A program made the position numbers and the translations under genes. Under the pieces are notes generated by a model that ran no database searches, had not been told where the DNA came from, and worked only from the letters and a program-made list of their open reading frames with translations. A stretch of DNA of 64,000 nucleotides from Acidobacteriota bacterium (GTDB taxonomy: Bacteria > Acidobacteriota > Holophagae > Acanthopleuribacterales > Acanthopleuribacteraceae). Position 1 is the stretch's first letter, and each line of letters opens with the position of its first letter. Of this stretch, positions 12,610 through 39,544 are shown piece by piece. The stretch is from assembly GCA_020439745.1 (NCBI GenBank), contig JAGQSC010000027.1:124001-188000 (forward strand), read 5' to 3'.

Positions 12610-13986
12610 ATGCGAACTTACCCAGTGATCATGGCTGGTGGATCTGGCGTACGTCTTTGGCCCTGGTCCCGTACCCATTTGCCCAAGCAATTTCTGAACT
12701 TCTCAGGCCCTGAAAGCTTGTTCACGCAAACTCTGAGACGGGCCTCACGATTGGCAGGAGCGCGGGAAACCTGGGTCGTGTTGGGCGAGGCTCAACGACA
12801 CCATGCCCGACGCATTGTGGATCAATATCATATCGATCAGGTCCGAATAGAAGTGGAGCCAGCATCCCGAAACACGGCGCCGGCCATTTTGTTGGCAGCT
12901 TTTCGAATTGCTTCTGAGGATCCTGACGCCATGCTGGCGATCCTTCCGGCCGATCATCTCGTCAGACCGCTTGATGCATTTTTGGACTGTGCCAATCAGG
13001 CTTTGTCGTTCGCGTTAAATACATCCGTGGTCACGATAGGTATCACCCCTGCACATGCCGAAACGGGCTACGGTTACTTGGAAACAGAGCCATCAAAAAA
13101 CGGTTACCGAAAAGTCCTAAGGTTTGTGGAAAAGCCGACCCTTGAAAAGGCCCGTGACTATTTGATCAGCGGTTGCCATTTCTGGAATTCAGGAATGTTC
13201 TTCGTTCGGGCCGAGCAGGTTATTTCGCTGATGGCCAAACATGATCGGGACAACTACCAGCGCGTGGCCCGCTACGTTCACACCAATCTTGGGGCTGATT
13301 ATGAGCGGTGTTCGTCGATCTCATTCGATTATGCGGTCATGGAGAAGCACCATGACACTCAGATGGTCGAATCTAAATTCCAGTGGAGTGACCTTGGGAG
13401 CTGGCAAGGTGTGCATCAGGTCAGTGATCGTGATCCGTCTAATAATGCAATCGCGGGAGATGCGGTACTGGCAGACTGTGAAGACAGCTTGGTGTTCGCG
13501 CGAAGTCGATTGGTCTTGGGGGTGGGGCTGAAGGGGATGGTTGTCGCGGAAACGAAAGACGCTTTGATGGTCGCATCGATGGAAGCGAGCCAACAAATAC
13601 GCGCGGCTGTGGACATGTTGAAGGATCGTGACGAGGTGGACCACCACACGACGGACGTGCGGCCATGGGGCAGTTTTACCGTGCTCGAAAATGACTCGAA
13701 TTTCAAAGTGAAGCGATTGGATGTATTGCCTGGTTGTCGTTTGTCGTTACAGCGTCACAAGTTCCGCACCGAGTTTTGGACCGTTGTGTGTGGAAAGGCC
13801 CGTGTTGTCGTGGGTGATCAGACCATTGAATTGAATTGCCATGAACAGGTGACGATTCCGCAGGGTACCCTTCATCGGATCGAGAACCCCGGACCACAAC
13901 CCTTGTGTATCGTTGAAGTTCAGGTGGGAAGTTATTTGGGAGAAGACGACATCGAGCGTTTTGAAGACGATTTTGGGAGATGCTGA
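12610..13986 (+). CDS. manC: Mannose-1-phosphate guanylyltransferase / mannose-6-phosphate isomerase (type II)
   Basis: 458 aa. N-terminal nucleotidyltransferase with VIMAGGSGVRLWPWSR (residues 7-22) and FVEKP near residue 175; C-terminal cupin-type isomerase domain (RPWGSF, LQRHKFRTEFWTVV, IPQGTLHRIEN). The enzyme makes GDP-mannose for polysaccharide and, together with the O-antigen ligase and the nucleotide-sugar dehydrogenase elsewhere in the window, supports a surface glycan pathway. ATG 12610 gives the family-typical N-terminus RTYPVIMAGG; a TTG nine codons earlier is possible. It is divergent from the receptor gene across a 286-nt gap in which no further gene is seen. Confidence 0.93.
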   Translation: MRTYPVIMAGGSGVRLWPWSRTHLPKQFLNFSGPESLFTQTLRRASRLAGARETWVVLGEAQRHHARRIVDQYHIDQVRIEVEPASRNTAPAILLAAFRIASEDPDAMLAILPADHLVRPLDAFLDCANQALSFALNTSVVTIGITPAHAETGYGYLETEPSKNGYRKVLRFVEKPTLEKARDYLISGCHFWNSGMFFVRAEQVISLMAKHDRDNYQRVARYVHTNLGADYERCSSISFDYAVMEKHHDTQMVESKFQWSDLGSWQGVHQVSDRDPSNNAIAGDAVLADCEDSLVFARSRLVLGVGLKGMVVAETKDALMVASMEASQQIRAAVDMLKDRDEVDHHTTDVRPWGSFTVLENDSNFKVKRLDVLPGCRLSLQRHKFRTEFWTVVCGKARVVVGDQTIELNCHEQVTIPQGTLHRIENPGPQPLCIVEVQVGSYLGEDDIERFEDDFGRC

Positions 13987-14004
13987 ATCGGCTCTTGCTA
14001 CAAT
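13975..14004 (+). promoter_or_regulatory. Possible sigma-70 promoter for the polyketide operon
   Basis: TTGGGA (-35, 4 of 6) and TACAAT (-10, 5 of 6) separated by 18 bp, overlapping the last codons of manC and 35 nt ahead of the first gene of the following operon. Pattern match only. Confidence 0.35.
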
Positions 14005-14038
14005 ACCTGTTCTTGAATTGAAACACGGAGAACCAACC

Positions 14039-15862
14039 ATGTCGCTTCTTTTTCTAATCGTCTTGGGTCAATCATCCAGTGCAACGATACTTGACCAACT
14101 CGAAACCGCGGGGGTTTCGCGCTATCAACCCGCTGAAATGGCCATGATCTTGGCTGGAGTTGACGAGTCTGAACTTCCCGCCAAGATGGCCGACTTTGAA
14201 AACTTGATTCAGGCATTGGTTGACAGCGTGGATAGTTCCAAGCCGATCAAGAAAATGGCGAAACAGTTACATGCGGAGCTTTTCAAACAGTTGAAGTCTC
14301 ATGACGAGAACAGCTATAAGCTCACTGAGTTACTGGGTTCGAAGACTTACAGTACCATCACGGCAGCATTTCTCTTTTATGAGGTCGCGCAGAGACTGGG
14401 GATGGAAGTTCAATTAGTCGAAACTCCGATCCATGTCTTCGGAATCGTGAAAGTCGATAAAAAGGATATCTTCATCGAGTTCTTCGACAAGACCGGGTAT
14501 GACAAACGATACACCGAATATCAAGCTTTTGCCCGAGACCTGCTCAATGCTGGTGTCACGGACGAACAGGCTCTGGCCAACATTCTGATTCAAGACAAAT
14601 TCGAGGAAATCAGAAGTAAGCGGCGAGGCATTGCAGCGCGCGATCTGGTCGCAATCATGGCGGCAAAGGCAGGTGTGAAGCGCATTACCAATGGCGACTA
14701 TTCAGGCGTAGCCGATGTGAATTTGGCCAGTGAATTGGCAGCTGCCAGCTGGTTTGGTTGGGGCAACTACGACCGCGAACTCCATATGGCCATCAATCAG
14801 CTGTATCAGGCCAAAAATATTGAATCCGGCTTGAATGTTTCCGCGTGTGCAGCGCGCAGGTTTCCAGATTATCGAGATTACGAGCCGTTCCTGTTCAATT
14901 TCGCAGTACTGCGCATTGAGCAGCTGGACAAAGCGAAGGATTACTCAGCTGCTTTTGATTTGGCAAATCGTGTTCAGGGTCTTTTGTCGGCGGAGACCAA
15001 AGGGCAGTTTCGCGAGGTCTTTCCCACGCTCCATCACAATTATGCCGTAAGTTTGTTCAATCTAAAATCATTCAAGGATTCCGCCCATCACGGTGAGTTG
15101 GCTTTGACGGGATATCAGGAGCTGGTCGCCAAGTACCAAAAACTCGCCGACGGGGCTGCCAAAGCCGATGATTTTAACAAATCGGTCGACGCCATTAATG
15201 AACTGATTCCCAAGGCAAAATCAAATTGGATCGATCAGCTGCTCAAAGAGGGCGACCAAGTCATGGCAAACCAGGTGTTGCAGGATCTTTCGAAAACCTA
15301 TCCGTCCTATGCTGATCAAATCAAGACTCGCATGGACCAACAAGCTCTGGAGTCCCTTTACAATTCGGGCAATTACGAAGATGCGTTGGCGATTGCTCTA
15401 AAGCGTATAGACGATGAGAATGGACCGCAAAACTACCTTGCAACCGTCAATCGGTACGCCAGCTCACTGATCGAGAATGGCCGTTTTGATGAGGCATTGA
15501 AGGCGCTGGACCAGGTGCACCCTTCTGCCAAAGACCATCAGGTGGTCAAAGACCTTCGTTACAACTGTTACATAGCCATGCTGACGAAACTCAAAGACGC
15601 AGCCTCGGAAAAGCAGCTTGTCGTTTATGCGCGTCTGTTTGCGGATCATCAACTCGTGATGACGGATGAAGAAAGGGAAGGGCTGACCACTAATCACGTG
15701 GCGGTTTTTGCCCAGCAAGTGGAAAAGGACATTGCAGACGGCAAATACAGCAAAGCTTCAGACCATCTGGCTGTCGGTGAGAAGATCTATCCATCAAATA
15801 CCGTCCTTTTGAACTTGCGTAAAAAGATCCGCCTCATTCAGGAGCGTTTGGCGGACCAATAA
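14039..15862 (+). CDS. TPR protein with inactive-looking transglutaminase-like N-terminus
   Basis: 607 aa. Start ATG 14039 with CGGAGA nine bases upstream and a hydrophobic leader (MSLLFLIVLGQSSS). Residues ~85-160 resemble the SirB1/transglutaminase-like fold: a helix TYSTITAAFLFYEVAQRLGM, then VETPIHVFGIV with the usual His and FIEFFDKTG with the usual Asp/Glu. The position where active members carry Cys is Ser/Thr here, so catalysis is doubtful. The rest is alpha-helical with tetratricopeptide-like repeats (e.g. SLYNSGNYEDALAIALKRI, LIENGRFDEALKALDQV). It is followed after 1 nt by a PP2C phosphatase and leads the operon that runs into the polyketide genes. Likely a periplasmic or membrane-associated scaffold; function unknown. 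Confidence 0.6.
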   Translation: MSLLFLIVLGQSSSATILDQLETAGVSRYQPAEMAMILAGVDESELPAKMADFENLIQALVDSVDSSKPIKKMAKQLHAELFKQLKSHDENSYKLTELLGSKTYSTITAAFLFYEVAQRLGMEVQLVETPIHVFGIVKVDKKDIFIEFFDKTGYDKRYTEYQAFARDLLNAGVTDEQALANILIQDKFEEIRSKRRGIAARDLVAIMAAKAGVKRITNGDYSGVADVNLASELAAASWFGWGNYDRELHMAINQLYQAKNIESGLNVSACAARRFPDYRDYEPFLFNFAVLRIEQLDKAKDYSAAFDLANRVQGLLSAETKGQFREVFPTLHHNYAVSLFNLKSFKDSAHHGELALTGYQELVAKYQKLADGAAKADDFNKSVDAINELIPKAKSNWIDQLLKEGDQVMANQVLQDLSKTYPSYADQIKTRMDQQALESLYNSGNYEDALAIALKRIDDENGPQNYLATVNRYASSLIENGRFDEALKALDQVHPSAKDHQVVKDLRYNCYIAMLTKLKDAASEKQLVVYARLFADHQLVMTDEEREGLTTNHVAVFAQQVEKDIADGKYSKASDHLAVGEKIYPSNTVLLNLRKKIRLIQERLADQ

Positions 15863-15863
15863 C

Positions 15864-16847
15864 ATGGATGCTCAAGTCCTTCTCGGACCTCAAGTCGTTC
15901 GGCCTGATGAGGTGCAATATGTCTCGTTGAACGATGATCTCGTCGGGGCACTGACTCCAGGTCACAAACGCACGATCAAGACCAAGTCCGATGGGAATGA
16001 GGACTGTCTTGCCCTGATTCGCTTTGGAACAGCGGGCGAGTTGATGCTGGTGGCCGATGCCCATTTTGGCGCTGCGACCAGCGTACAAGCCATTAGGGAA
16101 TTCCCCACCTTGTTTTCGCGTTTTCAAGGTAGTCCCGAATCCCGTCTGTTCTTTACCCATCTCGAGCTCGACAGACAGTTGGCTGAGATGAAATCAAAGC
16201 ATTCAAGTGTCAGTGAGGGGTGTTCAACCACCTTACTCAGCGTTTGGTTTGATGGATCTTTTTTGACATGGGCTAGCAGCGGTGACTCCATTCTCGTTCT
16301 TTTCCGTGAAGGTAAGATGCAGCAGATCAACCAAACCCACCACGCCATGTATTTGGGTGATGCCTACAATGCGCCACACCGATGCAATGAGCAGCTCCAA
16401 GCCTATTTACCTGAGGTGGTCCTTGCCGACAGTCATAAACGGGATCAAGCCCTCCTGGGGCTTGTCCAAACATCCATGAACCGAGATTTGTTCAAGGACA
16501 ACGAGGGCCGAGCCAAAGATATGATTCATGCGCTTGAGAATATGTTAGGCACAGAACTATCGGTTGCACCTAAAGACATCATGACTCCTTGGAGCCCCTT
16601 GAACATATGTCTGGCCCAGTTTATCCCTGAGTTTGGTCGATTTGCGCCCCAGCCAGGCGATACACTCTTGATGGCGACAGACGGGATCGATCCGTCGGTT
16701 AGCGGTGTCCCGTTCGAGAAACTAAAGGAGCTGATTGAACAGCGGGACAAATCGGTTCGTGAACGACTGGGCGATGTGATGGACCGCGTTTTGAGTCGCG
16801 AAGGTGGGATGGACAATTGTGCGTTGATACTGAAACAATGGAACTAA
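15864..16847 (+). CDS. PP2C-family Ser/Thr protein phosphatase
   Basis: 327 aa. The metal-binding blocks of PPM phosphatases are visible in order: GNEDCLALI then MLVADAHFG (the usual DGMGG replaced by DAHFG), GCSTTLLSVWFDG, TWASSGDS, GDTLLMATDGID, and GGMDNCALIL at the C-terminus. These Asp residues bind two metal ions for phosphoserine/threonine hydrolysis. There is no signal peptide, so it should be cytoplasmic. It starts one base after the TPR gene ends and is ten bases before the DUF1684 gene. A cognate kinase is not present in the window. A regulatory role for this operon is an inference. Confidence 0.82.
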   Translation: MDAQVLLGPQVVRPDEVQYVSLNDDLVGALTPGHKRTIKTKSDGNEDCLALIRFGTAGELMLVADAHFGAATSVQAIREFPTLFSRFQGSPESRLFFTHLELDRQLAEMKSKHSSVSEGCSTTLLSVWFDGSFLTWASSGDSILVLFREGKMQQINQTHHAMYLGDAYNAPHRCNEQLQAYLPEVVLADSHKRDQALLGLVQTSMNRDLFKDNEGRAKDMIHALENMLGTELSVAPKDIMTPWSPLNICLAQFIPEFGRFAPQPGDTLLMATDGIDPSVSGVPFEKLKELIEQRDKSVRERLGDVMDRVLSREGGMDNCALILKQWN

Positions 16848-16857
16848 GGAGCATGAC

Positions 16858-17718
16858 ATGATTTTGCTGTGTGCGTTACTGGTGATGGGCGGTGAGTCCG
16901 ATCAGGAACAACAATGGCGAGACGAGCGGTTGAAGGCACTGACCTCGGAAACGGGTTGGCTAAACGTGATTGGTCTCTATTGGCTGACCGAAGGTGAGAA
17001 CAAGTTTGGAACAGACCAGGATTTACCTATCACATTGCCGAAATTTTCGACGGTGCCCCATGCGGGGACATTGACCGTGAATGGCAATACCGCGTCGTTC
17101 ACCATGGAACGCGCTCAATTGGCCAAAGTGAATGGGCAAGAAACGCAAGCGGGTGTAATCGGATTGGGTCCGCCACCTGATGTATTGGCCCACAACCACC
17201 TACGTATGTTTTTGATCGTTCGAGATGACAAACTGGCGCTCCGCGTGAGGGATTTGCGTGCCAAGGCGGTGACTGAGTTCAAGGGTATTGAATATTACAA
17301 AGCAAAGAAGTCCATGATTGTGGAGGCCGAATTTACACCTTTTGAGCGCGTAGAAGAAACCTGGGTGTCCACGGTAATTGGTACTCATGAGCTGATGCAA
17401 GTTCCTGGTAAACTCACCTTTGAACTGGATGAACAAACACTGGAACTCACGCCTTTCATCGAAGAGGATGAAGAGGGCAAGCGACTTTTCATCATGTTCA
17501 AGGATCTAACTTCCGGCCATGAAACATATCCCTCCGGTCGTTACCTTAAGGCAGCAATGCCTGAGGAAGGGGCACCGGTGATCCTCAATTTCAACCGGGC
17601 ATATAACCCCCCCTGTGCATTTACTGATTTTGCGACTTGTCCCTTGCCACCGGCGGACAATTGGCTGGACGTCGCCATTGAGGCGGGTGAAAAATACATG
17701 TCCGATAGTCATGAATGA
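16858..17718 (+). CDS. DUF1684 domain protein
   Basis: 286 aa. Family blocks: GWLNVIGLYWLTEGENKFGTD, ILNFNRAYNPPCAFTDFATCPLPP and NWLDVAIEAGEK at the C-terminus. DUF1684 proteins are found widely in Bacteroidota, Actinobacteriota and Acidobacteriota; their biochemical role is not established. The N-terminus MILLCALLVMGG may be a short signal peptide. The ATGA at the end overlaps the start of the acyl carrier protein gene, so it belongs to the polyketide operon, although there is no other evidence that it acts in the pathway. Confidence 0.85.
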   Translation: MILLCALLVMGGESDQEQQWRDERLKALTSETGWLNVIGLYWLTEGENKFGTDQDLPITLPKFSTVPHAGTLTVNGNTASFTMERAQLAKVNGQETQAGVIGLGPPPDVLAHNHLRMFLIVRDDKLALRVRDLRAKAVTEFKGIEYYKAKKSMIVEAEFTPFERVEETWVSTVIGTHELMQVPGKLTFELDEQTLELTPFIEEDEEGKRLFIMFKDLTSGHETYPSGRYLKAAMPEEGAPVILNFNRAYNPPCAFTDFATCPLPPADNWLDVAIEAGEKYMSDSHE

Positions 17719-18254
17719 AACAACCACCTACTCTCGATGAACTGTCGCTGCGCATTGCGCAGATACTGTCTGAAGCCACCGGTCGTTCCGTAACTCGGTT
17801 TGATCAGCCATTGATGCGCGAACTCGGTTTTGACTCGTTGGACATGATTGAGGCCGCATTTTCCATGGAGGAACATTTTGGCTTTCAATTTGCCGAACAC
17901 CATCCTTTGGAGGTGCTTCAACAGCATTTAGGTGATGATCGTCTGATTCAAGACGGGGTGCTGACCGACTTAGGCAAGTCGGTTGCTTTGAAGAGAATGC
18001 CGGAATTAGCGGCATTTGAATGGACGAAAACCTCGGTTGCCGGTCTGCAACAGCTTTACACGGTTGAAACCTATGCCCGTATGATGAGCGAGTTCTATCA
18101 GGCCCTGCCCGAACTTGAAGCAACAACGGGTGAACCGATCGTCTTAGACGATTTGAAGCCCATTACTGCAACCACGCGCACACCAGTGAAGCCACCCAGC
18201 GGCGATGAGTTGGTAACGCGTTGGGCCGAGTCTATGGTTCAAGAACTGGCGTGA
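17715..18254 (+). CDS. Acyl carrier protein with C-terminal extension
   Basis: 179 aa. Residues 1-~78 form an ACP; the phosphopantetheine attachment site is Ser41 in ELGFDSLDMIE, followed by the acidic helix II. Free-standing ACPs are about 80 aa, so this one carries about 100 extra residues (rich in Thr/Pro/Glu near its end) of no recognised family. The start overlaps DUF1684 by 4 nt and the end overlaps the ketosynthase by 4 nt. Position directly before two ketosynthase-type genes and a type III polyketide synthase suggests it holds the acyl chain that primes the type III enzyme. Confidence 0.85.
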   Translation: MKQPPTLDELSLRIAQILSEATGRSVTRFDQPLMRELGFDSLDMIEAAFSMEEHFGFQFAEHHPLEVLQQHLGDDRLIQDGVLTDLGKSVALKRMPELAAFEWTKTSVAGLQQLYTVETYARMMSEFYQALPELEATTGEPIVLDDLKPITATTRTPVKPPSGDELVTRWAESMVQELA

Positions 18255-19372
18255 TTGGCGTTCAAGCTTATGGTTTGTGCCTACCCGGTGGATTATCCAT
18301 AGACGACCTGTTTATGGGCCAATCGGCGCTGGTGCGGCTGCCTGATGACTACCCCGTTGTGATTGGTGCTCCGGTCACAGAATCATTGCCAACACTTGAT
18401 AAATGCTTCGGTATTCAGCCCAGGGCAGCGCAGTTGGCACTGAGTGCGGTTGAACGACTAGGCGATGTTCCCGCGGACTGCGGACTGGTTTTGGGTATGT
18501 CGTCGTTGTTTAGCGAGCCCGAATACTTGGCACATGCCATGGTTCACCGTAACGACTGTCAGCGCATGAGTGAGGTGCTTGGGTTTGGAGGCGATCATGT
18601 ACTGCACGAGCTTGCAGACACTTGGCGAATCACCGGGCCCAGGCTGCGTGTAGATTCTGCCTGCGCCAGTGGCGCGGACGCGTTGATCGTTGCTTGCGAG
18701 TGGATACGCCATGATTACGTGGATCGGTGCTTGGTTGTGGCTTCGGCCGCTATGTTGAATCCTATTGGCTTGGCGGTATTCAAGAATCTAAAAGCACTTT
18801 CCACGGATGATGACCTGGGAGCCAGTCGACCCTTTGATCGGAGGCGCAAGGGTTTTGTGATGGGCGAAGGCGCGGCAGCCGTCTTGCTCGAACGAGGTCA
18901 AGGCGCTTGTTTTTCAGTGCAAGGCTGGGGACAGTCGATGAATGGATACAAATTTACCGATATGCCTGAAGACCTTTCGGCGATGTCAGATGCTGTCCGC
19001 CAGGCGATGGGTATGGGTTTGGATCAAGTGACTTATGTCTCGGCGCATGGAACGGGCACGCCCAGCAACGATCGAGCAGAAACAATGCTCCATCGACTTG
19101 TTTTTGGCAAACGCGCCATCCATGTGCCGATTTCGGCAATAAAGTCCATGACAGGACACTGTTTGGGTGCTTCTTCGCTGATTGAAATCGTCGTGGCTGG
19201 CGAATCGGTCAAACGACAAATGGCGCCCCCCACGATCAACCTGGATGTGCCCGATCCGGCATGTGATCTGAACTATGTAGCACGGCATGCTATCCCCTTG
19301 AACCCAGGGTTTGCTCTCAGCCAATCGTTTGCTTTCGGCGGACATAACGTTGCAGTTATGGTGTCTCCATGA
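18251..19372 (+). CDS. Beta-ketoacyl-ACP synthase (type II PKS/FAS ketosynthase)
   Basis: 373 aa from the GTG at 18251 (GTGA overlap with the ACP stop). Thiolase-fold condensing enzyme with the nucleophile Cys138 in DSACASGADAL, the first catalytic His in SAHGTGTPSND and the second His in KSMTGHCLGASS; the C-terminus FALSQSFAFGGHNVAVMV is also typical. It should extend an ACP-bound acyl chain with a malonyl unit. It is a little shorter than FabF (about 410 aa) at the N-terminus. The next gene is a ketosynthase-like protein without the Cys, so the two may form a KS-alpha/chain-length-factor-like heterodimer. Confidence 0.88.
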   Translation: MIGVQAYGLCLPGGLSIDDLFMGQSALVRLPDDYPVVIGAPVTESLPTLDKCFGIQPRAAQLALSAVERLGDVPADCGLVLGMSSLFSEPEYLAHAMVHRNDCQRMSEVLGFGGDHVLHELADTWRITGPRLRVDSACASGADALIVACEWIRHDYVDRCLVVASAAMLNPIGLAVFKNLKALSTDDDLGASRPFDRRRKGFVMGEGAAAVLLERGQGACFSVQGWGQSMNGYKFTDMPEDLSAMSDAVRQAMGMGLDQVTYVSAHGTGTPSNDRAETMLHRLVFGKRAIHVPISAIKSMTGHCLGASSLIEIVVAGESVKRQMAPPTINLDVPDPACDLNYVARHAIPLNPGFALSQSFAFGGHNVAVMVSP

Positions 19373-20109
19373 GATTAGCCGTTAGGGCGGTTCACGGTGT
19401 ATTCAATCGCGAATTATCCTGCGCAACCGAATATTGGACACACCGGCCCTTGGAATCAGAGTCCCGTGACCGGTCATTGGCTGCCCAATACGCCCATTTG
19501 GCTGTGAGTCGACTGACGCTACCCTCGAAAGACGTCGCTTTGCTTTGCCTTTCTGGGGCAAGCGGCGCGTTTTTGAAACGTTTTGATGCCGCGTGTGGGC
19601 CCGGTGGCGGGTTGTTCGAGCAAGGGTTTTCAGAAAGAGCGCGACGAATCCATCCTTTTACTTTGTTGTGGGCGCTACAAAACCAGGTACCTGCAGCACT
19701 TTCGATTGATTTTGCGCTTAAAGGTCCCTGCCTGAATCTATTTGAGTCGAGCACGGGCCTCGCCCACACCTACCCTTGGATTCAGTCTCAGTTTGGTTCG
19801 GGTCGCACGGTTCTTTTGGTGTTATGCGCCGCTGGGGACCGCGACGAGGAACGCACCAAGGTTGCGCGCATGCGTGCGTCGGAAGAGGGCCTCGAAGGCG
19901 CGGTTGCCATACATCTTAGCCCCGAACCCGGGTTAGGCTGGCTTTCAACAGGTCATCACCCTGTTCTGAGTCCCAGACCGTTTCGGGAACCGGTTTTGGC
20001 GGCAGGCGAAGCATTGATCGAGTTCGTCACGAGTGGGATCAGTCATGCGAGTTGCACCTTTGCTGATGATGTTGGCCGATGTTTGACCTTGAATTGGGAG
20101 GCTGCTTGA
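19369..20109 (+). CDS. Ketosynthase-like protein lacking the catalytic Cys
   Basis: 246 aa, overlapping the ketosynthase gene by ATGA. It aligns by eye with the N-terminal half of ketosynthases: CLSGASGAFLKRFD, FTLLWALQNQVPAALSIDFALKGPCLNLFESSTGLAH, where the nucleophile Cys of the usual T-A-C-A-S-G is replaced by Ser and no later catalytic His motif is found. The length corresponds to the beta-ketoacyl synthase N-terminal-like domain (DUF-type, seen in aryl-polyene clusters). Probably a non-catalytic partner that sets chain length or stabilises the upstream ketosynthase; this is inference. Confidence 0.68.
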   Translation: MRLAVRAVHGVFNRELSCATEYWTHRPLESESRDRSLAAQYAHLAVSRLTLPSKDVALLCLSGASGAFLKRFDAACGPGGGLFEQGFSERARRIHPFTLLWALQNQVPAALSIDFALKGPCLNLFESSTGLAHTYPWIQSQFGSGRTVLLVLCAAGDRDEERTKVARMRASEEGLEGAVAIHLSPEPGLGWLSTGHHPVLSPRPFREPVLAAGEALIEFVTSGISHASCTFADDVGRCLTLNWEAA

Positions 20110-21149
20110 TGTTCGTACAAGGTATTTCATTGACCACACCAGATGTGCCGCTACCGCAGTCGAAAGTCGTTGAAGAAGCGCGAAAGCGACTAAGAGGCAA
20201 AGTGCCCTTTGTCGAACAAGCCTTGGAACTGTTTCGGAACGCGGGCGTGGAAGACCGCTATCTATGTCGCGAATTGGACGAGATTTTCGAGCACCCCGAC
20301 CTGGCTTGGCGTAATGCTACGTACATTACCTACTGTGAACAGATGGCTGAGAAACTGTTCGACCAACTCATGAGTCAGACCGGTTTGGCACCAGAAGATG
20401 TGGACGTGCTCATCACAACTTCCTGTACCGGATTCATGATTCCTGCTGTGGATGCACATCTCATCAATACATTTCACTTGCGACGTGACGTGGTACGGAT
20501 GCCTTTCACTGAGTTAGGATGTGCAGCCGGTGCGATGGCTGTGTCACGCGCCATGGACTATTTGACGGCCTATCCGAATGCCAATGTAGTCGTCATGGCG
20601 ATTGAGTTGCCTTCATTGACCTACCAAAAGGATGACTATCGCGTCGCTAACCTGGTATCTGCTGCATTGTTTGGCGATGGAGGTGCAGCGGCTTTGCTTT
20701 CCGGGAAACCAGGGTGCTGCCGGCTCAAAAAAAGAGCGACGCACTTTTTCTACGATACGGAGCACCTGATGGGTTTTGATCTCAATGCCCAAGGTTTCAA
20801 GATCATCCTGGATAAAGGAATACCCGATTTGATTCGGTCTGGATTTCATGAGGTTGTTTCTCAGTTTCTGGCCTCGGCTGATTTGGATATTCCTGCCATC
20901 CGTCACTGGGTATTCCACCCCGGTGGACGCAAAATCATGGATACGCTGGGCGAGGTCCTCGGGATTGACGACAGTGCTCTGTCTCATTCACGTCACGTGT
21001 TGAGACGGGTCGGCAATCTCTCTTCGGCCTCCATTTTGTGGGTGCTGAACGATGTCTTGGCTGGAAGCCCGGAATCAGGTCCGGCCGTGCTGGGTGCATT
21101 TGGGCCCGGCTTCAACGCTGAACTCATCTTGGCAGAGATAACCACGTGA
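20109..21149 (+). CDS. Type III polyketide synthase (chalcone/stilbene synthase family)
   Basis: 346 aa. The start is ATG 20109, sharing one base with the preceding stop (TGATG) and preceded by GGGAGG at seven bases. The catalytic triad is visible: Cys138 in FTELGCAAGAMAV, His270 in HWVFHPGGRKIMDTL, Asn303 in RRVGNLSSAS. TSCTGFMIPAVDAHL near 105-118 is a further family block. Type III enzymes extend an acyl starter with malonyl-CoA and cyclise it to resorcinols, pyrones or phloroglucinols. Upstream ACP and ketosynthases and the downstream methyltransferase and flavoprotein suggest a long-chain alkyl-resorcinol or pyrone lipid that is then methylated and oxidised. Confidence 0.93.
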   Translation: MFVQGISLTTPDVPLPQSKVVEEARKRLRGKVPFVEQALELFRNAGVEDRYLCRELDEIFEHPDLAWRNATYITYCEQMAEKLFDQLMSQTGLAPEDVDVLITTSCTGFMIPAVDAHLINTFHLRRDVVRMPFTELGCAAGAMAVSRAMDYLTAYPNANVVVMAIELPSLTYQKDDYRVANLVSAALFGDGGAAALLSGKPGCCRLKKRATHFFYDTEHLMGFDLNAQGFKIILDKGIPDLIRSGFHEVVSQFLASADLDIPAIRHWVFHPGGRKIMDTLGEVLGIDDSALSHSRHVLRRVGNLSSASILWVLNDVLAGSPESGPAVLGAFGPGFNAELILAEITT

Positions 21150-21715
21150 TCCCATGGACCACAGTCTATTTGGCTGGAATCGTTGCAGTAGCGTTGCTAA
21201 GGCTGGGCGAGCTGTGGCTGGCCCGAAGCCACCTATTGAGCCTGGGTGACCAAGCAAAAGTTGTGGAGGAACCCCTATTCACGGCAATGGTCGTGCTTCA
21301 CGTTTCCTTTTTTGTGGTCATCCCCTTAGAACTTTGGGTGGGCGGTGCCTCCATAGGTGGCGCTGTGTCTCTCATTTCGCTAATCATGCTGTTACTTGCA
21401 CTGTGCCTGCGATTTTGGACACTGAAGACGTTGGGGGCATCCTGGCATGTTCGGGTTGTGATCGGTGGGCCCATCGTCAGTCACGGGCCCTATCGTTTCA
21501 TCAAGCATCCCAATTACCTGGTGGTCATCTTGGAGATGCTTTCGATTCCGCTAATACATCATTTGTACGTGTCTGCGGTGGTTCTGTCGCTGGGCAATGC
21601 GTGGGTACTTTCGCGACGAATGAAGAATGAGGAGCAGGCTCTGAGCCAGAACCCGGAGTGGGTCAAATCAATGAGCCACAAGCCGCGCTTGATTCCACGT
21701 TGGCCACATGACTGA
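21146..21715 (+). CDS. Isoprenylcysteine carboxyl methyltransferase-family protein
   Basis: 189 aa integral membrane methyltransferase with five or so hydrophobic segments and the C-terminal SAM-binding signature HGPYRFIKHPNYLVVILEML, then NAWVLSRRMKNEEQAL. The GTG start overlaps the type III PKS stop (GTGA). In Streptomyces phenolic-lipid clusters an ICMT-like enzyme (SrsB) sits directly after the type III PKS and O-methylates the alkylresorcinol; the same order here supports the same role. Exact substrate not provable from sequence. Confidence 0.85.
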   Translation: MIPWTTVYLAGIVAVALLRLGELWLARSHLLSLGDQAKVVEEPLFTAMVVLHVSFFVVIPLELWVGGASIGGAVSLISLIMLLLALCLRFWTLKTLGASWHVRVVIGGPIVSHGPYRFIKHPNYLVVILEMLSIPLIHHLYVSAVVLSLGNAWVLSRRMKNEEQALSQNPEWVKSMSHKPRLIPRWPHD

Positions 21716-22730
21716 GATTCCGGTAGTTGGAGGTGGCATCGCGGGCATGGCGGCTGCCCTGTTCCTGAAAAAACAGGGCTTGGCATCCGTGATTCACGAA
21801 GCCGTGGCGGGTCCTTTGGACCGGGTATGCGGGGAGGGCATTCTGCCTGTGGGCGTATCGATTCTTGACGAGCTGGGTCTCAAAGGCAAGGTCATTGAAG
21901 CGGGTAGGCCGTTTTCCGGGATCCGCTATCTATGCGGAAAATACCATGCTGAAGGCAGATTTGATTTCGGACAAGGCATCGGGATCTCCAGGCACCGGTT
22001 GCACCATGTGTTGCGCGAAGCATGTCTTTTGACAGGAGTTGAAGTCATTGAAGGGACGCCATGGCGGTTGGATGATTCGTCGGCTTGGATCGATGCTCGA
22101 GGATTGCGACCAAGAGGTGGACATGATCGGAGTCTAAGGTCATCTAGGGTCGGTATCCGCATGCGTGTCTCGGGTCCCATTAAGGACGTCGTCCAAGTGG
22201 CGTTTATGTCTTTTGGCGAGATATACGTAACACCAACTGGCAATGACACCTCTTCGGTGGCGTTTCTGGTAAATCCGAGTAAAATGCCGGCGCCTACCGC
22301 CTGGCGATCATGGCTCACCGACCATTTTCGACAGCGGTTTCCCGGGTACCGTGACGCCCGGGAATATGCGGTTCGGGCCCCGATTGCCGGCTATGGTTGG
22401 CCAGCCAGTACGAATGCTGTTGGTGATGCGCTGTGTGCATTTGACCCTATCTCCGGTGCAGGCATGAGTTTCGCCCTCATGTCCGCCAAGCTTGTGGCTT
22501 CAAAATGGGGCTCGTACCAGAAAAAGCAACTGACCCGCGCTATGTCGAGTTTCGGCTCCTACACCCAAACATTGTTGGCCTTTTCCGGGGGAGGATGGCG
22601 CAGCAAATTATTGGTGCGACAACTTGGAAAAAATCCGTCCATGTTCGACAAAATGCTGTCACAGTATGACGGTGAACATGGTCTTTCTGACCTGGGCCTG
22701 ATGAATTGGCTGAAACTGGCGTTGCCTTGA
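21708..22730 (+). CDS. FAD-dependent oxidoreductase / flavin monooxygenase-like
   Basis: 340 aa. N-terminal Rossmann motif VVGGGIAGMAAALFLKKQG (residues 6-24) binds the ADP part of FAD, CGEGILP follows near 41, and VGDALCAFDPISGAGMSFAL near 240 is the second FAD motif (GD...DP...G.G) of the geranylgeranyl-reductase/PHBH superfamily. It overlaps the methyltransferase by 8 nt and is the last gene of the operon. The third position after a type III PKS and an ICMT enzyme matches srsC, a flavoprotein that hydroxylates the phenolic lipid ring. The alternative is a reductase of unsaturated chains. Confidence 0.85.
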   Translation: MTEIPVVGGGIAGMAAALFLKKQGLASVIHEAVAGPLDRVCGEGILPVGVSILDELGLKGKVIEAGRPFSGIRYLCGKYHAEGRFDFGQGIGISRHRLHHVLREACLLTGVEVIEGTPWRLDDSSAWIDARGLRPRGGHDRSLRSSRVGIRMRVSGPIKDVVQVAFMSFGEIYVTPTGNDTSSVAFLVNPSKMPAPTAWRSWLTDHFRQRFPGYRDAREYAVRAPIAGYGWPASTNAVGDALCAFDPISGAGMSFALMSAKLVASKWGSYQKKQLTRAMSSFGSYTQTLLAFSGGGWRSKLLVRQLGKNPSMFDKMLSQYDGEHGLSDLGLMNWLKLALP

Positions 22731-22764
22731 ACACTTGCCGATCAGGTGTATGTGGGCTTAATTG

Positions 22765-25443
22765 ATGGGTATGTTTCTTGTGTTTTTTTGCTGGCAGGAC
22801 GTGTGGTCAAATCTGCTTGATGTGGCTCGCTTGGACCAAACACGAAGTAGTCTGACAAGTAGCGCTTGTGAATCAGGATGTCGATACGACCGGACATCAA
22901 AGGGCGATATTCGATTCGTGCGTGTGATTGATGACGAATCTGTGATCTATGAGTCCCATCGACCCGGTATCATCACGCGTATTTGGTTGACGCAGGGCAG
23001 CGGCGTTTCGGCGCCTCTGGATGCCGACTTACTGATGCGTATCACCATCGATGGTTTTGTAGTCATGGAGCTGCCATTGGCAGACCTTTTTAGTGGGTCG
23101 GTCACGCCGTTTCTGTCACCCATGGTGGGTCATCGCCTCAACTCGGCAGGCGGCTATTTTTCCTATGTCCCCTTGGCCTACCAAAGAAGTTGCCGAATAG
23201 GTCTGGTGCATGCCTTGGACCGCAAGATCTGGTATCAGGTCAATGCCAAACATGGCGCGCATGCGATGCCTAACTTTCAGCCAGGATCCACATTCTCACA
23301 ATGGCAAACGAGCATGGCCGACCCTCCCTCTGATCCATTTCAGGGGCCCAATTGGCAAGACCATTTGTTGAACCTCGCACCTGGCGGCTCGATCGCAGTG
23401 CAAATCGATCAATCAGACGTTTTGTCGGGTCTGCGTTTGACCGATTCGCCAGAGATACGGCGATGTTGGATCATAGGTTCAACTGAATCTGGCAAGGCAT
23501 TCGAGATGCGGGTTGCCGACTTTTTCGGACAGGATTCGCTTTCAAAGAGAGGCGTCCAATCACTGATGGTTGGATTGGATGGAAACGAACAGCTTTACAG
23601 CTATTGGCCCATGCCTTTCAGACGACTCTTCGTTTTGAACGTTGACGACCGAGACCATCAATTGCAACAGCCACACAACTTCCATCTGGGAATCCGTCTG
23701 ACCGGAAGTCCACCACATCCTGAAGCCGGATATTTTTCGGCAGATCTTCTGGAGGGAATCGCGATGGGCTCCTGCAATATCTTGCAATACGAAGGTCGTG
23801 GACTATGGGCAGGCCTGTTTCTCGAGCTTCACCGTGCAGGGACCAGTTGGGAGATCTTGGAAGGCGATGAAACCGTCTGGGTGGATGGCCAAACACTGCC
23901 TGCCTTTTCGGGAACCGGTGTGGAGGATATCTTTAACGGTGGGTTTTACTTTAGAACCGTTCCAGGATTGCCCCAGGTTTTTGCACGGGCATTGCACGGA
24001 GTCGGTTACGTGGACCCATTTCCGGAAGCTCGAATCGGCATGATCCGATTAATGCTCTCCGATGCAGTCGCTTTCTCTGATTCGCTGGATGTGACCTTAG
24101 AGGCGGGCCCCACCGGCAATTTGTCGATGGAATATCGCGCCGTGAACTATCTCTACAAGCAGTCTTTAGATGCAAATCCCGTCGTTTTAGGTGGTCCGTG
24201 TATGACCGCGGTTTCTTGGTGGGACCCATGGTCAGGAAACAGCGTGCCCGTTGATTCCAATGGCAATGGGGTCATCGAAATCACCGAGGCGGATCAAGTA
24301 ACTGGATGGATGGAGGTCTCAAATCCGGAAGAACAGGACGGTGTTTCCTGCTATTCACAGCTGGAAACCCTGGTTGTAAATGGCTTCCGTGGGTCGAGCT
24401 TTGATCTTTCCTCGTTGACGCTACTCAAGGCGCTACGACTGTACGAGGCGCCCAACTTGACATCAATCATTCTGCCTCATGCAATCGAGTCGTTGACAGT
24501 GTATGGGGCACCCATGCTGGACATGCTGAATCTGCCAAGTGACGTTCGTGTGATCCGTCTCCATGATCTACCATCGCTTACCACGCTCGATCTGACCAAC
24601 AAGAGCTTATTGGAACAACTAGATATATCATCGCTGAACCTGGTGGATCTCTCTCTGAAAAGCCAGCCGAACCTTGTGGATTTGAGTGTGAGCAACTGCC
24701 CCGCCTTGGTGTCGCTGAGCCTCGCTAATGTACCTGAATTGGAAACCTTGTCGTTGCGTGATCTGGATAGCTTGGCGACGCTTTCGATGACAGCTGCCTC
24801 TGCGCTCAACGACGTTGAACTGCTAACGCTTCCTTCTTGTGTGGATATTGTTTTGACTGGGCCTATTCAAGCACGGAGGATTTATGCAGACGGTGTCAAT
24901 CCGAATGTTCAAGCACAATGGGATCAGGTAATCGTTGAGAACCTTGAATGGCATGGTTCATTGAATCAGCTTCCAGTGCTGGACAATCTTCGGGCCCTAA
25001 CCTTAGGGGGCGGACCTTCGTGGCTGGATCTCTCAGGATCTGAACAGTTGCGTTACATAGAAGTGGCTGATGCCGGTCTAAATGGAATGATGTTGCCTGT
25101 TCCAACCCAGGTGCTTTTGGCTTCGGGAAATCCGTTTACAGGCAGCCCTGACCTGACCGAGCTCAGCCAATTGAATTTGCTTGACCTCAGAAGTTGTGAC
25201 CTGACTGAATTGGCAGGTTTGATAGGCAACACATTCGTGGGTACGCGCCAAATAGACGCACTCAAGGTTTCGGATAACCGGCTTCTGACCCAATGTGACG
25301 CACTGGACGAACTGTCCTTGCGATGTTCAACATCAGGTGCATTCCTGGACCTGACGCCTCAAAGATGGGACTGGTCATTCTGGCCCAATATTAATGTTGC
25401 GGTACTTATTGAGGATCCTAGTGTGACAATGATTTGTCCGTGA
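22765..25443 (+). CDS. GH172 (DUF2961) family protein with leucine-rich repeats
   Basis: 892 aa. Residues ~60-480 match DUF2961/GH172: SHRPGIITRIWLT near 70, YEGRGLWAGLFLELH, and FSGTGVEDIFNGGFYF with the conserved Glu. GH172 enzymes act on D-arabinofuranosides and difructose dianhydrides and usually form trimers. A calcium-loop-like segment DSNGNGVIEITEAD near residue 495 follows, then ~20 leucine-rich units (e.g. LETLSLRDLDSLATLSM) to the C-terminus. The start is ATG 22765 or 22771; a short hydrophobic stretch (MFLVFFCW) suggests export. It follows the polyketide operon by 34 nt but has its own theme. A GH172-LRR arrangement is unusual as far as I know. Confidence 0.78.
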   Translation: MGMFLVFFCWQDVWSNLLDVARLDQTRSSLTSSACESGCRYDRTSKGDIRFVRVIDDESVIYESHRPGIITRIWLTQGSGVSAPLDADLLMRITIDGFVVMELPLADLFSGSVTPFLSPMVGHRLNSAGGYFSYVPLAYQRSCRIGLVHALDRKIWYQVNAKHGAHAMPNFQPGSTFSQWQTSMADPPSDPFQGPNWQDHLLNLAPGGSIAVQIDQSDVLSGLRLTDSPEIRRCWIIGSTESGKAFEMRVADFFGQDSLSKRGVQSLMVGLDGNEQLYSYWPMPFRRLFVLNVDDRDHQLQQPHNFHLGIRLTGSPPHPEAGYFSADLLEGIAMGSCNILQYEGRGLWAGLFLELHRAGTSWEILEGDETVWVDGQTLPAFSGTGVEDIFNGGFYFRTVPGLPQVFARALHGVGYVDPFPEARIGMIRLMLSDAVAFSDSLDVTLEAGPTGNLSMEYRAVNYLYKQSLDANPVVLGGPCMTAVSWWDPWSGNSVPVDSNGNGVIEITEADQVTGWMEVSNPEEQDGVSCYSQLETLVVNGFRGSSFDLSSLTLLKALRLYEAPNLTSIILPHAIESLTVYGAPMLDMLNLPSDVRVIRLHDLPSLTTLDLTNKSLLEQLDISSLNLVDLSLKSQPNLVDLSVSNCPALVSLSLANVPELETLSLRDLDSLATLSMTAASALNDVELLTLPSCVDIVLTGPIQARRIYADGVNPNVQAQWDQVIVENLEWHGSLNQLPVLDNLRALTLGGGPSWLDLSGSEQLRYIEVADAGLNGMMLPVPTQVLLASGNPFTGSPDLTELSQLNLLDLRSCDLTELAGLIGNTFVGTRQIDALKVSDNRLLTQCDALDELSLRCSTSGAFLDLTPQRWDWSFWPNINVAVLIEDPSVTMICP

Positions 25444-38698: not shown

Positions 38699-39463
38699 CT
38701 ACATTCCCATAACGTGGTATCCGGCATCCACGTGGATGGTTTCACCCGTGATACCTGTAGACCAATCACTTAACAAGAAAGCGCTGGCCTTGCCTACTTC
38801 TTCTTGACTGATGTTGCGCCGTAAAGGTGAGCGCTGGGCGACCACGTCCAACATGCCACCAAATCCGGCTACGCCCGCAGCCGCAAGGGTCTTAATGGGT
38901 CCGGGCGACACAATGTTCACGCGAATTTGGTCTGGACCCAGATCCGCGGCGAGGTATTTGGCCGACATCTCTAGAGCCGACTTTGCCACACCCATCATGT
39001 TGTAGTTCGGCACCACGCGTTCCCCGCCCAGGTAGCTCATGCAAATAATGCTGCCACCGTTCGTTTCCATGAGCGGCTTGGCATGGTGGGCAAGGGTCAC
39101 CAGCGAATAGGCGGAGATGTCGTTGGCCAGTGAATAGCCGGCGCGTGAAGTCTCATGAAAAGCGCCTTTCAGATCTTCTCGATCGGCAAAGGCAATGGAA
39201 TGAACCAGACCGTCCAACTGACCCCATTTTTCCTGCAAAGTGGCAAAAAGAGCCTCGGTCTCGCTTTCCTGGGTCACATCACAAGGCAGCAACAAGACGT
39301 CTTCCAATTCCTTCGTGACCTTTTCTGCATTCGATTTTAGGCGTTCGTTTTGGTAAGTGATGGCAATTTGGGCGCCGGCCTCAGCACAAACCTTGGCGAC
39401 AACCCAGGCAATCGATCGGTGATTGGCCACACCCGTAACCAGAATTCTCTTTCCATCCAACAT
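38699..39463 (-). CDS. fabI: Enoyl-[acyl-carrier-protein] reductase (NADH) FabI
   Basis: 254 aa short-chain dehydrogenase that reduces the enoyl-ACP in fatty acid synthesis. The N-terminal [25 protein letters not shown] and the active-site Y-x6-K in [13 protein letters not shown] (about residues 150-163) identify FabI rather than Fab[12 protein letters not shown]-like and the C-terminal [22 protein letters not shown] also fit. ATG 39463 is preceded by AAGGTGG; an in-frame upstream start would include that site. Relevant to the acyl-chain supply of the polyketide cluster, though it is a separate locus. Confidence 0.94.
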
Positions 39464-39544
39464 TCCCACCTTAACCACCTTTCCGGCACTTGGCACCGAG
39501 CATAATCCCGTGAAAACTAATACAAGGCAGGTGTTTTTTCAACC

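Follow-up and report, generated by a model that had tools for sequence, protein, structure and literature searches.

We analyzed a 64,000-nt stretch of DNA (hereafter the window; positions 124,001 to 188,000 of contig JAGQSC010000027.1) from a 5.1-Mb draft genome of a marine member of the family Acanthopleuribacteraceae (Acidobacteriota). Within it lies a run of six genes that encode an acyl carrier protein (ACP), a ketosynthase (KS), a small KS-like subunit that lacks the catalytic Cys, a plant-like type III polyketide synthase (PKS), an ICMT-type methyltransferase and a flavoprotein. A preliminary description of the window had placed these genes on the plus strand at 17715-22730 with overlaps of 1-8 nt, and the coordinates of the open reading frames agree exactly. 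In window positions, which are used throughout, the genes are:

17715-18254, plus strand: extended discrete ACP of 179 aa (Pfam PP-binding, 5.5e-07; GFDSLD motif)
18251-19372, plus strand: KS with a GTG start (Pfam ketoacyl-synt N and C; Cys-His-His triad present)
19369-20109, plus strand: half-size Cys-less KS-like subunit, a candidate chain-length factor (CLF), with a predicted thiolase/KS fold
20109-21149, plus strand: type III PKS (Pfam Chal_sti_synt N and C; Cys-His-Asn triad)
21146-21715, plus strand: ICMT-type membrane methyltransferase with a GTG start (PF04140, 1.6e-21)
21708-22730, plus strand: FAD-dependent oxidoreductase/monooxygenase-like flavoprotein (FAD_binding_3, 6.6e-09)

Successive genes overlap by 4 nt (ACP/KS), 4 nt (KS/CLF), 1 nt (CLF/type III PKS), 4 nt (type III PKS/ICMT) and 8 nt (ICMT/flavoprotein). 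Pfam and NCBIfam assign every gene of the six except that of the Cys-less subunit, which matches no family in either collection.

All six genes are present in six of the seven genomes of the family, spanning four genera. The best relatives of the window genome are the metagenome-assembled genomes (MAGs) OFTM365 (same genus), MO_135.B14 and 8_bin.70, together with Sulfidibacter corallicola and Acanthopleuribacter pedis. A genome of the same genus (G001) keeps the order TPR/transglutaminase-PP2C-DUF1684-ACP-KS-CLF-type III PKS-ICMT-FAD at 37-65% protein identity, and this recurrence of a nine-gene order argues that the six-gene arrangement is not due to chance. The tight cluster is confined to this one genus. 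In the other three genera, represented by four species, the six genes are split over three loci: KS-CLF-type III PKS, either overlapping or with gaps of at most a few tens of bases, beside a gene for a YceI-type protein; ACP directly before ICMT, apart from the first locus; and the flavoprotein gene alone. KS, CLF and type III PKS are thus adjacent in all six carrier species, with a KS identity of 50-60% across the four genera. Each of the five relatives has one ICMT homologue (51-54% identity), and the flavoprotein homologue occurs in the same six species as the rest of the set.

The seventh genome (G002; 3.5 Mb, 94% complete) lacks all six genes. Its sole KS match is FabF, encoded beside an ACP gene, its best ACP match does not rise above noise, and no match to the type III PKS, ICMT or flavoprotein was found in it. 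The YceI-type gene follows the same pattern as the six genes, being present in six of six carriers and absent from G002. It stands beside KS-CLF-type III PKS in the three other genera (L020-L023); in the window genome it lies away from the cluster (G000:C60:370382-370969).

As KS-CLF adjoins the type III PKS in six species and all six genes co-occur, the genes look like parts of one pathway, and the strongest evidence supporting this is their persistence in four genera despite dispersal. The adjacency of ACP and ICMT at the second locus in three genera further ties the ACP to tailoring. With the genes divided among three loci in most of the family, searching by gene cluster alone would recover the pathway only in pieces.

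The KS is FabF-like over its C-terminal two thirds. In an alignment of the six species, Cys138, His266, His303 and Lys298 are invariant, and for this reason the KS should be active, as the preliminary description had proposed; it carries the Cys-His-His residues of a minimal type II PKS. Against the FabF profile it scores 223 bits, under the cutoff of 493.75, and a profile search of PDB sequences returned FabF at 230 bits, the actinorhodin KS at 192 and ApeO at 120. In a phylogenetic tree, the KSs of the family form a single clade with full support, separate from the FabF of the window genome itself (support 100/100). Judged by profile score and tree placement, the cluster KS is not the housekeeping FabF.

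For the Cys-less subunit, the column that aligns with the KS nucleophile holds S, G, P, D, V or N in the six species. On sequence grounds it is not an active KS, and a role as a decarboxylating KSQ was rejected because neither Gln nor Ser is conserved in this column. The AlphaFold2 model (mean predicted local distance difference test score, pLDDT, of 76) has a KS/CLF fold: VIA-align gave Z scores of 15.5-17.9 to KS and CLF structures overall, the ishigamide CLF scoring 17.9 and ApeC 15.9, the latter tied with many FabF structures. The top Foldseek match was ApeC (6qsp_B, E 7.5e-08), which is also of similar length (238 vs 246 residues). ApeC has a single thiolase domain and is described as roughly half as large as its KS partner (PMC8358021). 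The "Cys-less ketosynthase-like protein" of the preliminary description therefore holds as to the replaced nucleophile and the predicted fold, and we refine it to a putative half-size, ApeC-like CLF. Fold and nucleophile column together give the cluster the Cys-less paralogue of a minimal type II PKS as well as a CLF of the half-size kind found in aryl polyene systems. Its sequence retains one recognizable trace only, a FabF-like RRIxPF...N...GL.GP segment that does not reach significance on its own.

Searches for further CLFs are indicative only. A single-sequence scan of genome contigs found none. A profile search of 396 genomes sampled from the phylum, with about six candidates scored per genome and the four other carriers seemingly outside the sample, gave only two genomes above noise, both of the same genus; a search of 36 genomes with a related type III PKS, run with no positive control, found none. 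With this subunit, half-size CLFs would extend in nature beyond aryl polyene systems.

The ACP domain spans approximately residues 1-75, and Ser41 is invariant in the six-species alignment. The C-terminal extension is predicted to be ordered (AlphaFold2 mean pLDDT of 90 over the whole chain). It has no Pfam assignment and no significant structural match, the Foldseek alignments covering chiefly the ACP domain. The PP-binding match and the ordered extension agree with the earlier assignment of a discrete, extended ACP, which, as modeled, would be a natural case of a carrier protein with a second ordered domain. Outside the family, few genomes have a near full-length match, and the five best of these carriers are all missing from the list of type III PKS genomes from the 396-genome sample. 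The relatives found in a few other acidobacteria adjoin KSs, in one genus together with a short-chain dehydrogenase/reductase (SDR) and a dehydratase-like protein. We note that two of the extended-ACP relatives (L137:7047-7712 and L139:6784-7392) carry an additional CxxC...CxxC stretch in their C-terminal portion, and that the KS-adjacent extended ACPs of other acidobacteria possibly mark an undescribed class of secondary lipid clusters.

In the type III PKS, Cys137, His269 and Asn302 (numbered from the second protein residue) are invariant in the six species. The nearest solved structures are 1u0m (RppA/THNS), Pks11 and CylI, and the type III PKSs of the family form a single clade with full support. 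The ICMT gene follows the type III PKS gene directly in the window; in the three other genera it lies elsewhere. For the flavoprotein, the best named profile is QhpG, with every named profile far below its cutoff; it is FAD-binding and monooxygenase-like, a candidate member of the SrsC family.

To place the cluster among other type III PKS loci, we scanned for related enzymes and obtained 64 loci, 59 of them outside the family. Flanks of up to 8 kb around the outside loci were searched with the family profiles: an ICMT homologue was found at 40 of 59, a flavoprotein homologue at 12 of 59, and a KS or extended ACP at none (0/59). Type III PKSs at E values up to 1e-15 occur in 126 of the 396 sampled genomes of the phylum. 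The simplest history that we infer has a KS-CLF-ACP module being added, within this family, to a pre-existing type III PKS-ICMT unit. Two type III PKS contigs in the scan, labelled Klebsiella pneumoniae and Akkermansia muciniphila (L062 and L087), group with other phyla and probably come from mislabelled or mixed metagenome bins.

Our preferred reading, to which we assign a probability of roughly 0.6, is that the six genes encode a hybrid polyketide pathway, of types II and III, whose product is a phenolic lipid (a resorcinol or a pyrone). Since the set stays complete in relatives in which its genes are dispersed, it probably yields a previously unknown phenolic lipid by a new starter-feeding route. 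Known sources of starters for type III PKSs are CoA esters, type I synthases and the general fatty acid ACP. A dedicated donor made of discrete KS, CLF and ACP proteins would, if true, add another way of feeding these enzymes and illustrate how chemistry of types II and III can be combined. In the open-licence literature we found no report of a KS-CLF feeding a type III PKS; a comparative-genomics paper on Acanthopleuribacter pedis and Sulfidibacter corallicola lists arylpolyenes among its antiSMASH classes, and "T3PKS" is absent from its main text. Both species carry the set, are cultured and live in association with marine animals, so that the pathway is open to lipid analysis.

We hypothesize that the pathway runs as follows. 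The KS and the half-size CLF would form a heterodimer, by analogy with ApeO and ApeC, and would condense malonyl units onto an acyl chain held on the dedicated extended ACP, either building or extending that chain. The resulting acyl-ACP or beta-ketoacyl-ACP may then be handed directly to the Cys of the type III PKS, which would add malonyl-CoA units and close the ring. The ICMT-type enzyme would methylate the product, as SrsB does, and the flavoprotein would hydroxylate or oxidize it, as SrsC does; the YceI-type protein may carry it. The order of these steps, like the acyl transfer and the class of product, is our inference. There is precedent for the hand-over: ArsB and ArsC take acyl groups from ArsA, germicidin synthase also takes acyl-ACP (PMC6274091), and CylI takes an ACP-bound acyl starter (PMC8086630). 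A more detailed version, which we advance tentatively and at somewhat less than even odds, is that this is the first type II/type III hybrid in which a KS partnered by a half-size CLF assembles the chain on a dedicated two-domain ACP and passes it, possibly unreduced, to a type III PKS, with the C-terminal domain of the ACP acting as an adaptor that recognizes both KS-CLF and the type III PKS.

Whether the chain would be reduced bears on the main competing explanation. The preliminary description found no ketoreductase (KR), dehydratase (DH) or enoylreductase (ER) in the cluster, and this extends from the window to the split loci across the family: in all four genera, the genes around the loci include none of the three. 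The chain would then be either processed by the fatty acid synthase or passed on as beta-ketoacyl-ACP. Under the latter explanation, KS-CLF would perform one or a few condensations and transfer the beta-ketoacyl-ACP to the type III PKS, such that a single poly-beta-keto chain is begun by one synthase and continued by the other while the dedicated ACP shields the intermediate from FabG. The absence of KR, DH and ER beside the loci fits this, as does the report that GCS uses acetoacetyl-CoA and acyl-ACP starters (PMC6274091). It is also in keeping with what we found of a genus-specific FabG-ACP-FabZ-KS-lipoprotein mini cluster (L149:8886-12151 in G000:C2; L150:7911-11194 in G001:C8), which is outside the conserved set and whose dehydratase has no orthologue at comparable similarity in the other genera. 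However, the extended ACPs of one other acidobacterial genus adjoin an SDR reductase and a dehydratase-like protein, and aryl polyene biosynthesis, the source of the known half-size CLF, is equipped with a KR and a DH of its own (PMC8358021). On balance we regard a wholly non-reducing hand-over as unlikely, although it is the strongest of the rivals.

The mini cluster constitutes a second fatty-acid-like enzyme set in a genome that has only three KSs by family profile. We considered it as a conserved reductive partner of the pathway and found no support for this, given that close orthologues of its dehydratase are confined to the genus.

A second possibility is that the pathway has two arms. 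The type III PKS would then start from common acyl-CoA, as SrsA does, and the acyl group made by KS-CLF-ACP would be a separate one, joined on at a later stage or destined for a different product. Acyl-CoA use has been reported for SrsA (PMC6669644) and proposed for planctomycete enzymes (PMC10896814), and the type III PKS loci outside the family have no neighboring KS and ACP. Against this, KS-CLF adjoins the type III PKS itself in six species, and the set includes neither an acyltransferase nor a ligase, which makes this arrangement improbable. That an ordinary srsABC-like operon was joined by chance to a fatty-acid KS pair is hardly credible: the tail does match srsABC, but KS-CLF-type III PKS stay together over four genera at 50-60% KS identity, ACP and ICMT stay paired at a second locus, and the cluster KS is distinct from FabF.

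Several observations weigh against the hybrid pathway that we favor. The absence of the set from G002 is a single event, so that the co-occurrence does not amount to many independent trials. With no KR, DH or ER beside the loci, any reduction would depend on enzymes encoded elsewhere. The KS lies nearer to FabF (230 bits) than to ApeO (120 bits), suggesting that the ApeC likeness of the CLF is one of fold and not of a shared operon type. A profile-profile comparison of KS with CLF gave no significant match, and the kinship of the CLF thus rests on its predicted structure. Finally, the use of acyl-ACP by the type III PKS is a proposal from precedent.

Two other genes in the window bear on the cluster or were named in the preliminary description, which correctly placed fabI elsewhere in the window:

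16858-17718, plus strand: DUF1684 protein (PF07920, 3.7e-45), overlapping the ACP gene by 4 nt
38699-39496, minus strand: fabI

Because of the overlap between the DUF1684 and ACP genes, the transcription unit probably starts upstream of the ACP gene. Despite this coupling, we rejected DUF1684 as a member of the pathway, since it is present in all seven family genomes, including G002, which lacks the set; it is probably a passenger. Transglutaminase/TPR, PP2C phosphatase and DUF1684 genes precede the ACP gene at 13913-17718 with tiny gaps or overlaps. Downstream, a large DUF2961 and leucine-rich repeat protein is encoded on the same strand at 22762-25443, 31 nt past the flavoprotein gene; in the sister genome, the flavoprotein gene is followed instead by a different gene on the opposite strand.

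Among known systems, the tailoring part is closest to srsABC of Streptomyces griseus, where the same three gene families stand in the same order (stilbene synthase, ICMT and monooxygenase; PMC6669644), as the preliminary description had recognized. In contrast to the cluster described here, srsABC works with acyl-CoA and is without KS, CLF and ACP genes; moreover, the three tail genes are dispersed in three of the four genera here. Methyltransferase-oxidoreductase-type III PKS operons of planctomycetes and cyanobacteria (hidABC) share the tailoring functions but differ in gene order, and KS-CLF-ACP has not been reported in them. One planctomycete operon is also reported to include a gene for a lipid/isoprenoid-binding protein (PMC10896814).

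The logic of a chain builder dedicated to a type III PKS is shared with ars of Azotobacter vinelandii, where the type I fatty acid synthases ArsA and ArsD feed ArsB and ArsC by direct acyl-ACP transfer (PMC6274091). The ars builders are megasynthases, whereas here we found discrete type II proteins and no type I fatty acid synthase genes beside the type III PKS. The cylindrocyclophane cluster (CylB ACP, CylD/CylH type I PKS, CylI type III PKS) likewise has a free-standing ACP and an ACP-bound starter (PMC8086630), and one of the solved structures closest to the type III PKS here is that of CylI. Elongation there is performed by type I PKS modules, with no KS-CLF.

The half-size CLF with one thiolase domain is the architecture of ApeO-ApeC, but the KS here is more FabF-like than ApeO-like, and neither the window cluster nor the surroundings of the split loci hold the dedicated KR, DH and second ACP of ape clusters. 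Type III PKSs are not known from ape clusters. The system is a full member of none of these: ars has a type I fatty acid synthase that is missing here, ape differs in its KS and in the make-up of its cluster, and srs is three genes smaller. It resembles the Ars and Cyl hybrids in logic, srsABC in tailoring and the ape KS-CLF in architecture. We would classify it as an srsABC-like phenolic lipid operon with a proposed type II feed for the type III PKS.

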